Assembly (NCBI RefSeq): GCF_014651675.1
Contig: NZ_BMXI01000017.1
Coordinates: forward strand, 62,001 to 126,000
Source: Roseibacillus persicicus
GTDB lineage: Bacteria > Verrucomicrobiota > Verrucomicrobiia > Verrucomicrobiales > Akkermansiaceae
Direction of reading: 5' to 3'
DNA length: 64,000 bases
This document shows, in pieces, positions 2,699-50,148 of this stretch. The notes under the pieces were generated by a model. It was given only the letters and a program-made list of their open reading frames with translations, ran no database searches and had not been told where the DNA came from. How positions within the stretch are numbered: position 1 is the first letter of the stretch; each line of letters starts with the position of its first letter. A program made the position numbers and the translations under genes.

Positions 2699-3153
2699 GC
2701 TAATGAGGGAATAGGAACGACTTCGATCTCGGAGATTTTGGCAAAGTCCTTGGGGTTGGCGGTTAGGATTTTAGTGAAGCCATGACGTAAAGCCGTCGCC
2801 GCGATGTTGGCATCGTGAATGCGCTTTCCCTTGAGGTCATACTTGGCCACGAGGTCGTGCAATGTCTCTGCCACGGCGTCGTCCTCGGGCAAGAGCAAAC
2901 AAATGGAGAGGATGACATTTTGATTCTTGATGGCTTCGGCAACGGTAGCTCCTAAGCCGTTATTTTCGCGTGGTCTTGTGGAGACGACGAGAACTTCCCT
3001 GAGAATTTGATTGCTCACAAGGAGGCGGAAATGCCCTTCTTCTGCTTGCTCCATGAGATGGAGGCAGGCGTCGTGGTTGGCCCGTGTTCCTTGAAAGGCA
3101 CCTAGGAACAAATTCGCGTCTGCGATAGCGGTTTCACCTTCCGTCATCACCAT
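2695..3153 (-). CDS. VapC-like PIN-domain ribonuclease toxin
   Basis: This 152-residue PIN-domain protein probably cleaves RNA as the toxin of a type II toxin-antitoxin pair. The usual acidic quartet can be placed: Asp12 in AIADANLFLG, Glu53 in NQILREVLV, Asp114 in RIHDANIAATA, and the C-terminal TANPKDF, where Asn133 or Asp136 would be the fourth ligand. The N-terminal 20 nt overlap the end of the antitoxin gene, which is typical of VapBC/FitAB pairs. The start could be ATG 3153 or ATG 3147. Its TGA overlaps the ATG of the DUF5682 gene, so the pair is embedded in the operon rather than simply lying beside it. The exact RNA target cannot be read from sequence. Confidence 0.82.
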   Translation of the reverse strand: MVMTEGETAIADANLFLGAFQGTRANHDACLHLMEQAEEGHFRLLVSNQILREVLVVSTRPRENNGLGATVAEAIKNQNVILSICLLLPEDDAVAETLHDLVAKYDLKGKRIHDANIAATALRHGFTKILTANPKDFAKISEIEVVPIPSLA

Positions 3154-3394
3154 AGATTTCGTCGCGAGTTATCGGAGGCAAAGTCGCAGGACCATCGCGG
3201 TCGATGATATGAATTCTTTCTTTGAGAGGAACTCGCTTGCTAACTGGCTCGTCTGGACTGTCGAGGCGGCCCTCCAAAACAGCATCAATAACCCAATGGA
3301 GTTGTCGCTGCAGGGAGCGATGATTCTTCTCTGCGAGCTTTTTCAAGCCCGTTAGTTTCTCTTCAGGAATATCTCGAATGACAAACGATGGCAT
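3134..3394 (-). CDS. FitA-like ribbon-helix-helix antitoxin
   Basis: Starting at ATG 3394 the product is 86 residues and opens MPSFVIRDIPEEKLTGLKKL, followed by RSLQRQLHWVIDAVL. This is the N-terminal beta strand plus two helices of an Arc/MetJ-type DNA-binding dimer, as in FitA antitoxins. The C-terminal half is polar and presumably wraps the toxin. A longer in-frame start at 3433 would overlap the DUF4132 stop and add 13 residues lacking family similarity, so 3394 is preferred. It lies 35 bp downstream of the DUF4132 gene and overlaps the toxin gene by 20 nt. Antitoxins of this type usually repress their own operon. No separate promoter is obvious here, so expression may follow the larger operon. 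Confidence 0.8.
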   Translation of the reverse strand: MPSFVIRDIPEEKLTGLKKLAEKNHRSLQRQLHWVIDAVLEGRLDSPDEPVSKRVPLKERIHIIDRDGPATLPPITRDEIYGDDGR

Positions 3395-45667: not shown

Positions 45668-45840
45668 GGTAAGCTATCCTGTCTGCCTGAATCTCTGCTG
45701 TCAAATCGAAGCGGAATTTGTCCCAAAGAATAGTCTCCGGCCCATTACAGTAAGGAAAACCGACTTCCCGCGAGGGAGAACTTGAATATTCCGTCCCAGT
45801 CGTACACAGTCCCGCCCCCGCGTGAAGCGGTTCGAAGAAG

Positions 45841-47244
45841 ATGGCGAAAACCTTGTATCAAAAAGTTTGGGATGCTCACACCGTGGGCAAGTTGGGTGAC
45901 GGACGGACTCAGTTGTTCATTGGCACCCACCTCATTCACGAGGTGACCTCTCCGCAAGCCTTTGGAATGCTCCGTGACCTCAATCTGAAGGTGAAATATC
46001 CTCAGCGGACCTTCGCAACCATCGATCACATCGTCCCGACCGAGAATCAGGACCAGCCCGCCGACCCGTTGGCCGCTGACATGATCAACGCCATTCGCTC
46101 CAACTGCGATGATTTTGGCGTGACTTACTTCGACCTCAAGTCCGGCAAACAGGGCATCGTGCACGTGGTGGGACCCGAACAGGGAATCACCCAACCGGGA
46201 ACGACCATTGCCTGCGGAGACTCTCACACTGCAACTCATGGTGCCTTCGGCGCGATTGCTTTTGGAATCGGAACCACTCAGGTGCGTGACGTGCTCGCGA
46301 CCCAGACTTTGGCCATGGAATCCCTCAAGGTGCGGCGCATTGAGGTCAATGGGGAGTTGCCTCCGGGGGTTTACGCCAAGGACGTCACTCTTCACATCAT
46401 CAAGCTTCTCGGAGCCAAGGGTGGGATTGGGTATGCCTACGAATACGCTGGTTCGACTTTCGACAACTTCACGATGGAGGAGCGCATGACGGTCTGCAAC
46501 ATGGCGATCGAAGGGGGAGCTCGCTGTGGCTATGTGAATCCGGATGAAAAAACCTTCGAGTTCCTCAAAGGCAAGCCCTACGCACCGAGTGAGGACCAAT
46601 GGGACGAGGCTGTGGCCCGCTGGAAGTCCTTCGCTTCCGACCCCGATGCCGAGTATGACGACCTCGTTGTAATCGATGCTGCCGACATCGCGCCAACGGT
46701 GACATGGGGGATTTCGCCCGACCACGCTCTTTTCGTGTCTGAGAATGTTCCGGATCGCAATGGCGAGACTGCGGAAGCGCTCGATTACATGAAGCTCGAG
46801 CCAGGTTCTCCCATCAAAGGCACCAAGATTGATGTCGCCTTCATGGGTTCCTGCACCAACGGGCGCCTTTCTGATTTTCGCGAGGCGGCCAAGTATCTTA
46901 AGGGCCGCAAGGTCGCTGCCGGGGTCAAGGCGATCGCAGTCCCTGGTTCGCAGATCACGGCAGTTCTCTGTAAGCAGGAAGGAATCGATAAGATCTTCGA
47001 AGAGGCTGGATTCGAGTGGCGGGAAGCCGGGTGCTCGATGTGCCTTGCAATGAACCCCGACAAGTTGGTCGGGGACCAGCTCTGCGCTTCTTCCAGCAAC
47101 CGAAACTTTAAAGGCCGTCAGGGCTCGCCGGTAGGTCGGACGATTTTGATGTCGCCAGTGATGGTGGCGGCAGCGGCAATCGAAGGACATGTCGCCGACG
47201 CGCGCGAGACCTTCAGCTTTCAAGAGCAGGCTGCAGTCGCTTAA
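45841..47244 (+). CDS. leuC: 3-isopropylmalate dehydratase large subunit LeuC
   Basis: This 467-residue aconitase-family enzyme isomerises isopropylmalate in leucine synthesis. It opens [13 protein letters not shown] and shows [33 protein letters not shown], and the iron-sulfur ligands Cys in GSCTNGR and the pair in [20 protein letters not shown] near the C-terminus is characteristic of LeuC. It needs the small subunit LeuD, which is not encoded in the window, so the two genes are separated unless leuD lies outside. The upstream 170 bp show no recognisable leader peptide or T-box. Confidence 0.97.
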
Positions 47245-47304: not shown

Positions 47305-47790
47305 TTATTCTTTGAGGCGGAATTTCATGAGGTTGAGTGAATCCTCGACCTCCAGTCGTCCGATGGCGCCTGTGCTGTAGACTGCGATATCAACTGTCTG
47401 GTCCGGCCTCAAAATAAAGCCGGTGGCGTGAAGGTAGCGGTCGTCGTCGTCATCGGCGAAAAAGGCTCCGGTGAGTTCGGCGAATGCCGCCGGATCGATC
47501 CCGTAGGCCACGGGATAGCTCAACCCGAGTTTGGCGATGGTCTCTTCCGCTTCTTCCTTCGTTTCCGAGGAAGCAGCGATGACGTCGATGCCCCGTTTGG
47601 AAAACTCCGCTAGGTGTTCCTGATAGTCAGCCAACTGCTGACGACAGAATGGTCACCAGTTTCCGCGATAGAGCAAAAAGAGTGTCCAGTTGCCGGTGGG
47701 AACGGCCAAGGTGCTTCCATCGGTCAGGGTGAGAGCGAGCTCGGGGAAGGGAGCTCCGGTATCTAGCTTCTGAGTTTGGGTCTGGGGCAT
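47305..47790 (-). CDS. selenocysteine-containing peroxiredoxin-like protein (in-frame TGA)
   Basis: Reading from ATG 47790, the frame is open for 45 codons (MPQTQTQKLDTGAPFPEL..., ending FLLYRGNW), meets TGA at 47655-47653, and continues without break as PFCRQQLADYQEHLAEFSKR to a stop at 47305. In AhpC/TSA (redoxin) relatives this site is RGNWCPFCRQQL, with Cys where TGA stands. The TGA is therefore best read as selenocysteine in a U-x-x-C active site, giving 161 residues. A stem-loop with bacterial SECIS features follows (see the separate entry). Both halves are protein-like and needed for the thioredoxin fold, which argues against a pseudogene. The enzyme would reduce peroxides or disulfides in the cytoplasm. 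Standard gene calling would start after the TGA, near 47634, and miss the active site. Confidence 0.85.
47617..47655 (-). promoter_or_regulatory. bacterial SECIS-like hairpin directly after the TGA
   Basis: On the minus strand, 10 nt after the TGA, GTCAGC (47642-47637) pairs perfectly with GCTGAC (47631-47626) around the loop AGTTG. The loop has G in its second position and starts 16 nt after the TGA, within the range accepted for bSECIS elements. An outer CTG/CAG stem extends it across a small internal loop. Confidence 0.72.
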
Positions 47791-48086
47791 TGTTTTGTAG
47801 GGTTGGTTAATTGTTTGAGTTTTGACCTCTCGATTCCCGAGAGGACCAGGGGATGTCAGTGGGGTTCTTGGCTCCTCATCTGACGTAGTACCCCTCGCGT
47901 GGGAGAGCGAACTGTCAAATAACGAGTCTTTCGAGTCCCGCGGGATTTGTTTTGAGGGGGGCGAATCGAGCTTGGTTTTCGGCTGGGCCTCTTCATTTAC
48001 AAGGTGAAGAAGCCAAGGGATGAGGGCAAAATTTCCAAGCTTGTCGATTGAATCGGTCTGAAATCTGCGTAGATTGGTCTATTAAT

Positions 48087-49079
48087 ATGAAGTATTTAGG
48101 GTCCCTGGCCATGCTTGGCACACTGTTCGGGTTCGGAAGTCTCTCCGTATCTGGGGCGGACCGCCATTATTTCAATGACTTGGACGCTCCTGAGTCGGTG
48201 GAGGATCTGGTCAATATCGAGACTGCCCTCAAATCGGTCCTTCCATCCACTCGCGCCGCTACGGTTTGCCTGGAATTAGGTGAGGAAAAGGGTTCTGGAA
48301 GTGGGGTGATCGTCAGTCCCGATGGATTGATTCTTACCGCAGCGCACGTGAGCGGAGGAGTGAACCGCACCATCGAGGCGGTGATGGAGGACGGCACGCG
48401 TTATCCGGTGCGGACTTTGGGCCTGATTTCAAATACCGACGCCGCGATGGCCCAAATCGAGGGGGAGGGGCCCTTTCCCTACGTGGAAGTGGATCGCGAG
48501 AATGAAACGATGTTAGGCGATTGGGTGATGGCACTGGGACATTCCGGCGGCTTCGACCTTGAGCGCGGGGTCGTTGTTCGACTCGGTCGGGTGGTGCGGA
48601 TGGCGCAAAGAACTTGGCAGACTGACGGCACCTTGATCGGAGGTGACTCGGGCGGTCCTCTCTTCGACTTGCAGGGGCGCCTGATCGGGATTCACAGCCG
48701 GGTTGGCAAGGTGAAGCTCGAGAACCTGCACGTGCCAATGAGTGATTTCGTCGAAAACTGGGATCGAATGCTGAATGAAGAGTTCGTCGGAGACGGTCCG
48801 TTTGCGACGCGTTTGCCGGGATATCTGGGAGTTCAGTTGGAGAAAGACGAGGAGTCAGGCGAAGTGTCCATCGCAGAAGTGATGGCAGACGAAGCGGCCG
48901 AGAAGGCTGGTTTGCAAAAAGGCGATATCTTGTTGAAGGTTGGCGAGGAGGGCTTCGAGGATGTCGAAGGTCTTCAAGGTCTTTTGAAGGAAAAATCAGA
49001 AGGGGATGTCATTTCGCTGACCTATCGCCGGGATGATGAGGAGCAAACTGTGGAATTGAAATTAGGTGGACGTGAGTAA
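48087..49079 (+). CDS. HtrA/DegP-like serine protease with one PDZ domain
   Basis: This 330-residue exported protein has a signal peptide (AMLGTLFGFGSLSVSG). The trypsin-like domain has a full catalytic triad: His in LILTAAHVSGG, Asp in SNTDAAMAQI and Ser in IGGDSGGPLFD. One C-terminal PDZ domain follows (GYLGVQLEKDEESG, AEKAGLQKGDILLKVG). It is a periplasmic quality-control protease or chaperone of the DegP/DegS class. ATG 48087 is used since the signal peptide starts there; upstream in-frame sequence from 48048 looks non-coding. Its stop overlaps the start of the next gene, which encodes a related but degenerate protein, so the two probably act together. Confidence 0.92.
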   Translation: MKYLGSLAMLGTLFGFGSLSVSGADRHYFNDLDAPESVEDLVNIETALKSVLPSTRAATVCLELGEEKGSGSGVIVSPDGLILTAAHVSGGVNRTIEAVMEDGTRYPVRTLGLISNTDAAMAQIEGEGPFPYVEVDRENETMLGDWVMALGHSGGFDLERGVVVRLGRVVRMAQRTWQTDGTLIGGDSGGPLFDLQGRLIGIHSRVGKVKLENLHVPMSDFVENWDRMLNEEFVGDGPFATRLPGYLGVQLEKDEESGEVSIAEVMADEAAEKAGLQKGDILLKVGEEGFEDVEGLQGLLKEKSEGDVISLTYRRDDEEQTVELKLGGRE

Positions 49080-50148
49080 ATTGATACTTTGTGGCATGGG
49101 GGCGATGCTGTTCGCCCCAATCGTGGCTGGGCAGAGCTTGGAGAGTGAGTTCCGTAAGGAAGGCACCCGCGTGCGGGCAGCTTACGATGAATTGACGGAG
49201 ATTTTCCAAGCCAGCAGTGCGGTGGTCTACGATGATTGGAAGAAGGACGGCTACGGCGTGGTGGTGAGCTCCGATGGGCAAGTGCTGGTGAAAGCAAGCG
49301 AGCTGCCCGCGCTGGAGACCCTTTCACTTCGGATTGGGAGGAAAAAATACAGCGAGGTGGAGGTCTTGGCCACGAGTGCGGATTGGGACGTGAGTCTACT
49401 GAAGGTTGATGCCGAGGGGCTGACCGCGATTGAATTCTCGGAAAGCGAGCCCGGACACGGCTCGATTGTCTTGTCCAATGGGGCGACTTCGAATCTCAAG
49501 CGGCGTGCTCAGATGGGGGTCATTGCGGCGAACGCCCGTGAAGTGGGTGAAGGCCAGTTGGCGGTTCTGGGGATTCAGATGGATGGCTCTGTAGAGGGGG
49601 AAGTGAAAGTGGGTGGAATCAGTCCACAAAGCGGAGCAAAGGATGCTGGAATGGAGAAAGGCGATCAGATTCTCTCCATCGAAGGGGAAGCGGTCGCGAA
49701 AAACGAGGAAGTGGCGGAGTTGCTCAGAGGGCGCAAGCCAGGGGAGATGATCAAGATTTTAGTTCGGCGAGAAGCCAAGCAGGAAAAGCCTCTGGAGGTG
49801 GAAGACCCTTTCGCCCACTTGGCGGAGTTCGAGCCGAGCTTCGAAGAATTGGAATTCGAAGTGGAGCTACGCGAACGCCAGATTGTTTTTCCCGAGCAAT
49901 TCACCCGCAACGATATGATGAGCGGCAAGTTCTCCGAGCGTCGCACGAATTTTCCCCGCATTCTGCAGCACGATACCTCATTGGCGGATCGCACTACGGG
50001 AGGTCCTCTCCTGACCTTGGATGGCAAGTGCGTCGGAATGAATATCGCTTATGTGAGCCGCGAGTGTTCTTACGCGATTCCCGCAAAGGAGCTGCAGGAA
50101 TTGCTCGGGCAGCTCCGCGCGGAGGCAGGCATGGTGCCGGCGGAGTGA
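49072..50148 (+). CDS. catalytically degenerate HtrA-like protein with internal PDZ
   Basis: From GTG 49072, preceded by AGGTGGA and overlapping the protease stop, this encodes 358 residues with a signal peptide (LCGMGAMLFAPIVAGQ). It retains the beta-barrel outline of HtrA (YGVVVSSDGQVLVKASEL, LATSADWDVSLLKVDA), but the His position reads ASEL instead of AAHV. The Ser motif is DRTTGGPLL instead of GDSGGP, so Thr replaces the nucleophile. A PDZ domain (KVGGISPQSGAKDAGMEKGD) sits between the two halves rather than at the C-terminus. It is therefore probably a pseudoprotease that regulates or scaffolds the active protease encoded upstream. That role is inference; the residue losses are seen directly. 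Confidence 0.8.
   Translation: MSKLILCGMGAMLFAPIVAGQSLESEFRKEGTRVRAAYDELTEIFQASSAVVYDDWKKDGYGVVVSSDGQVLVKASELPALETLSLRIGRKKYSEVEVLATSADWDVSLLKVDAEGLTAIEFSESEPGHGSIVLSNGATSNLKRRAQMGVIAANAREVGEGQLAVLGIQMDGSVEGEVKVGGISPQSGAKDAGMEKGDQILSIEGEAVAKNEEVAELLRGRKPGEMIKILVRREAKQEKPLEVEDPFAHLAEFEPSFEELEFEVELRERQIVFPEQFTRNDMMSGKFSERRTNFPRILQHDTSLADRTTGGPLLTLDGKCVGMNIAYVSRECSYAIPAKELQELLGQLRAEAGMVPAE

Follow-up and report, generated by a model that had tools for sequence, protein, structure and literature searches.

A probable selenoprotein of the Prx-like UxxC class, with an in-frame UGA and a bacterial SECIS hairpin, in Roseibacillus persicicus

Prx-like UxxC selenoproteins

Prx-like selenoproteins carrying a PF00578 domain and a UxxC motif were described as "Prx-like protein" in the Sargasso Sea survey (PMC1088965), as the UxxC selenoprotein "Prx-like 1" in the GOS survey (PMC2398784) and, in Table 1 of a 2026 review, as Prx-like thiol:disulfide oxidoreductase selenoproteins with PF00578 and UxxC (PMC13188914). 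The original prediction for the locus considered here, which called Prx-like UxxC proteins a recurrent kind of bacterial selenoprotein, agrees with these surveys, where the class has appeared since 2005. Within the window (the whole stretch of DNA that was analysed, 64,000 nucleotides), the locus encodes a predicted protein that has both the PF00578 match and the UxxC motif; like the published members, it shows UxxC rather than TxxU, a bacterial SECIS element (bSECIS) directly downstream, and homologues with Cys. On domain and motif, the window gene belongs to the known Prx-like UxxC class, its clade lying either within Prx-like 1 or next to it.

Curated profiles describe the protein less well. 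The best NCBIfam match is the SelL-related redox protein NF040769, with which it shares a weak profile similarity (35.5 bits), far under the curated cut-off of 120 bits, and zero NCBIfam models score over their own cut-off for the window protein; standard annotation may therefore well split such genes.

The reading frame and its TGA

The features of the coding sequence are as follows.

47305..47790, (-) strand: putative selenoprotein gene, complete, 161 residues including Sec46, from ATG (47790-47788) to TAA (47307-47305), with a PF00578 match and orthologues that read through likewise.
47653..47655, (-) strand: UGA codon predicted to be read as selenocysteine (Sec46); TGA in the relatives that cover the site and Cys in distant homologues.
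47644..47646, (-) strand: codon of Cys49 (TGT), the Cys that closes the UxxC motif and does not vary within the family.

The (-) strand frame from 47790 to 47305 had been predicted to be broken by a TGA alone and, in its 161 codons, the sole internal stop is indeed the TGA at 47655-47653, codon 46, in the protein context YRGNW-U-PFCRQQLADY. The read-through protein matches PF00578 (AhpC-TSA) with an E value of 3.2e-15. It had also been foreseen that ordinary annotation would yield an N-truncated fragment without the active site, and the mechanical list of open reading frames, the output of a plain ORF finder, holds at this locus just an N-truncated ORF of 109 aa that starts at a TTG at 47634. 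Taken with the comparative evidence below, the apparent stop is almost certainly a selenocysteine codon in an intact gene, with a probability of about 0.95 for the decoding of UGA46 as Sec; there is practically no room left for a pseudogene, a sequencing error or general recoding.

A scan for promoters and terminators was empty on the (-) strand of the gene. Divergent from it, at 48048-50148 (+), lies a tandem gene pair that by eye has the look of trypsin/PDZ-type proteases, and a 492-aa open frame at 45745-47223 (-), antisense to a LeuC-like gene at 45841-47244, is probably a spurious shadow ORF.

Fold and possible chemistry of the active site

Both PF00578 and PF08534 match all 31 members of the family, and the AlphaFold model of the window protein has a peroxiredoxin fold (pLDDT 94, pTM 0.90). 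In this model the whole chain resembles Bcp4 (PDB 3hjp), the best structural match, with a Z of 21.6 and an rmsd of 2.0 over 153 residues, and Mycobacterium tuberculosis AhpE (PDB 4x0x), with a Z of about 20. Unlike them, however, the protein has UxxC without the Arg in place of their TxxC(P)...R set, and the identity is 12-15%. Thus, of the features of a canonical peroxiredoxin, the predicted fold is present, whereas the TxxC(P) motif and the Arg are absent.

The original prediction placed the TGA at the active-site Cys of a peroxiredoxin-like enzyme. This holds in so far as homologues do have Cys there, but the position is not the classical peroxidatic one: a profile alignment to the peroxiredoxin 6q5v matches Sec46 to the Thr of TxxC and Cys49 to the peroxidatic Cys, which points to a Prx-like UxxC redox protein with Sec46 as a thioredoxin-type N-terminal redox residue. 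The same alignment would also suit a true selenoprotein with Prx-type peroxidase activity, in which Cys49 is the peroxidatic residue and is partnered by Sec46, and the strong match of the modelled fold to peroxiredoxins favours such an enzyme. Nevertheless, Sec takes the place of the Prx Thr, the HMM alignment to 6q5v puts a residue other than Arg at the position of the catalytic Arg, and ResA-type thiol:disulfide oxidoreductases (CxxC) score equally well by sequence, which makes a Cys49 peroxidase an unlikely, if still sizeable, alternative.

With Sec46 as the attacking residue, the product would be a small redox protein of the Prx fold with the active site U46-P-F-C49. UGA46 is almost certainly translated as Sec, with SelB and tRNA-Sec brought in by the hairpin that follows it; the Sec46 selenolate might then attack a disulfide or peroxide substrate, Cys49 would form a Se-S bond in resolving the intermediate, and the enzyme could be recycled by a reductant of the thioredoxin type. 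The protein may serve as a thiol:disulfide oxidoreductase or else reduce hydroperoxides, and a thioredoxin-dependent activity of either kind, with Sec46 attacking, is the reasoned and somewhat favoured assignment.

The probable SECIS hairpin

47626..47642, (-) strand: putative bSECIS apical hairpin, stem GTCAGC/GCTGAC and loop AGTTG, with top synonymous conservation and both-sided pair changes.

The perfect 6-bp stem pairs GTCAGC (47642-47637) with GCTGAC (47631-47626) around the loop AGTTG (47636-47632). The stem starts 10 nt past the TGA, the loop lies 16 nt from it, and a G occupies loop position 2, so that the hairpin appears in every detail of stem, loop, G position and spacing as it was originally proposed under the bacterial SECIS rules. 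The published bSECIS model has an apical loop of 3-9 nt, an upper stem of 4-16 bp, a G as the first or second base of the loop and a distance of 16-37 nt from the UGA (PMC13188914), and the 6 bp, the AGTTG loop and the 16 nt found here all lie within it. A lower helix is predicted between UUCUG (47649-47645) and CAGGA (about 47622-47618), and RNAfold recovers the apical hairpin within a longer hairpin, the overall folding energy of the single sequence being unremarkable (z = -1.6 vs shuffles). In Rfam, the hairpin had no match.

Counting both strands, the window has 2,052 TGAs, of which 408, about a fifth, pass a loose SECIS rule; the hairpin alone would therefore be weak evidence, and it is the comparative evidence that counts. 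A perfect 6-bp stem with a 5-nt loop, the exact spacing and a G at loop position 1 or 2 occurs at two of these 2,052 TGAs, and among the 121 TGAs preceded by 30 or more open codons and followed by 60 or more, the codon-46 TGA is the only one with the strict hairpin.

Selenocysteine machinery

The organism had been inferred to decode UGA as selenocysteine, and its genome (5.28 Mb, 97% complete) contains the complete set of SelA (459 bits vs a cut-off of 268), SelB (over its cut-off), SelD (374 bits vs a cut-off of 125) and tRNA-Sec with a UCA anticodon. The SelD gene (G000:C13:136723-137652; locus L015, about 1480-2532) itself has one in-frame TGA near the N terminus, in SSCAGUASK, at the position that in SelD proteins is occupied by Cys or Sec, and is a second probable selenoprotein gene. 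The presence of SelA, SelB, tRNA-Sec and a SelD with its own TGA makes it very probable, even with the Prx-like gene set aside, that UGA is decoded as Sec in this organism.

Distribution of the gene and its TGA

In a sample of 387 genomes of the order, orthologues were found in six genomes as seven copies (E below 1e-40), each with exactly one TGA and always at the same codon. In all six holders there is a tRNA-Sec and a SelA that scores over its cut-off, and SelB is seen in five; SelB was not found in the holder G146, whose assembly is 92% complete. Many SelB-bearing genomes lack the Prx-like gene, which is therefore dispensable.

A scan of the genomes of 84,980 species with an alignment query that had X at the Sec codon gave 33 relatives, a set that overlaps with the order copies, and TGA stands at the site in all 31 that cover it. 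These relatives span about nine phyla, their record titles naming Verrucomicrobiota, Gemmatimonadetes, Desulfobacterota-type lineages, Nitrospiraceae, Nitrospinae, Methylomirabilis, Acidimicrobiales, Tectomicrobia and others. An earlier scan of species' genomes with a Cys-substituted query of the single protein had no match; one of its patterns demanded a Cys codon at the TGA site and the others fitted this one protein. Scattered additional stops, which would speak for decay, were looked for in the relatives, and the family-profile matches retain the TGA with none beyond it except in a Syntrophaceae fen_1168 copy (L055, about 2754-3190). This copy has the Sec TGA and two more in-frame stops, both called TAG (DF*SRI, where the stop is TAG, and RG*VHATGF); a pseudogene, a sequencing error and amber decoding are candidate readings.

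Across the related loci, the gene neighbourhood holds no conserved partner. Two copies, L023 (G011:C36) and L019 (G223:C394), are little diverged although their genomes belong to two different families, either by horizontal transfer or by a binning error in one assembly; G011 holds a second, more distant copy, and a G011 copy lies ~16 kb from the tRNA-Sec gene of that genome.

Homologues with cysteine

A search of plasmids found Cys homologues in Deinococcus, mycobacteria and rhizobia, with up to 45% identity: 45% for Deinococcus aetherius WP_264777680.1 and 39% for WP_033718792.1 from a Mycobacterium kansasii plasmid, both over nearly the full length, and 33-35% in rhizobia. At the Sec site they read WCP[FY]C. 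The first two, annotated as "peroxiredoxin family protein", share with the window protein the motifs YRG-x-W-[UC]-P-[FY]-C and SSGA[IV]GR but differ in having Cys for Sec and no SECIS hairpin; indeed, 1-3 of the 6 stem pairs form in the Cys homologues. Alignment of homologues at this codon, proposed from the start as a check, thus gives TGA in the near relatives and Cys in the more distant ones, and the Sec genes and plasmid homologues, as far as their sequences tell, form a classical Cys/Sec pair. In a tree of poor resolution, which is compatible with either Sec or Cys as the ancestral state, the Cys homologues are interspersed with the Sec sequences. A Sec-only family, suggested by the TGA in 31 of 31 relatives, was dropped in view of the Cys homologues on plasmids; that count is no proof of it, because the scan patterns were derived from Sec members.

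Selection on the hairpin and on the protein

Among the seven order copies, pairs of codons for the same residue are identical in 104 of 120 cases (87%) for the hairpin codons vs 735 of 1,618 (45%) outside the SECIS region, and the codons for RQQLAD are, of all runs of six codons in the gene, the ones with the highest synonymous conservation. The stem pairs form in 91% of cells vs at most 47% in slid controls, with the basal pair unpaired in 8 of 31 relatives. Both-sided changes at three stem pairs occupy 8 cells of the 31 sequences vs 2.7 expected, a value reached in 0 of 500 shuffles, although the relatedness of the sequences inflates this control. The changes are a basal G-C to A-U, an A-U to G-C in Gemmatimonadetes L048 and a G-C to A-U in five Actinomycetota (L065, L068, L070, L072 and L074), where the change of Ala54 to Val (GCT to GTT) is accompanied by a silent Gln codon change (CAG to CAA), by which the stem pair is regained. 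This combination suggests an influence of the RNA helix on the protein beside the active site.

The protein itself is under purifying selection, with dN/dS of about 0.1-0.2 (NG86): the nearest relative differs from the window gene by dN 0.26 and dS 1.23, and the close pair L023/L019 has dN 0.028 and dS 0.29. The invariant residues are P15, R41, W44, U45, C48, L52, D54, G107 and R144 in A5 numbering, which begins at protein residue 2.

A decaying pseudogene or an assembly error would make the TGA a nonsense mutation of a TGC or TGT Cys codon, and the TGA is in fact one base from the TGC of the Cys homologues. However, independent genomes of about nine phyla have the same TGA, with other stops in L055 only, dN/dS is low, the hairpin has its synonymous conservation and pair changes, and the Sec machinery is present in all six holders examined; the common TGA and the purifying selection on either side of it effectively refute decay or error. 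A restart downstream at TTG 47634, with a 109-residue C-terminal fragment as the real product, would match the mechanical ORF list, and in about half of the related loci the ORF retained is a similarly truncated one; nevertheless, the protein stretch encoded by the 45 upstream codons is conserved between phyla (P15, R41 and W44 among the invariant residues) and the fragment would have neither the initial strands nor the active site of a confidently modelled Prx fold, which leaves a restart highly improbable. General readthrough or reassignment of UGA (e.g., as Trp), with no insertion of Sec, would by itself fit a UGA in a conserved frame, but is hardly credible given that the alternative residue is Cys and never Trp, that the Sec machinery is complete in this genome, whose SelD contains a TGA, that SelA and SelB read without internal TGA, and that a conserved hairpin follows the codon.

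Significance

With the selenocysteine reading of UGA46, a little-studied lineage of Verrucomicrobiota almost certainly has a true selenoenzyme here. More tentatively, and with somewhat less than even confidence, the family may be a mainly Sec-dependent Prx-like clade, thinly spread across about nine phyla, without a curated NCBIfam model and systematically split in annotation, in which an mRNA hairpin constrains the protein by its active site. The alignment of the relatives is a ready base for a curated model, which would rescue dozens of split genes. Moreover, an enzyme that exists both as a Sec form with the hairpin and as a Cys form without it is a good test bed for the retention of selenium in bacteria.
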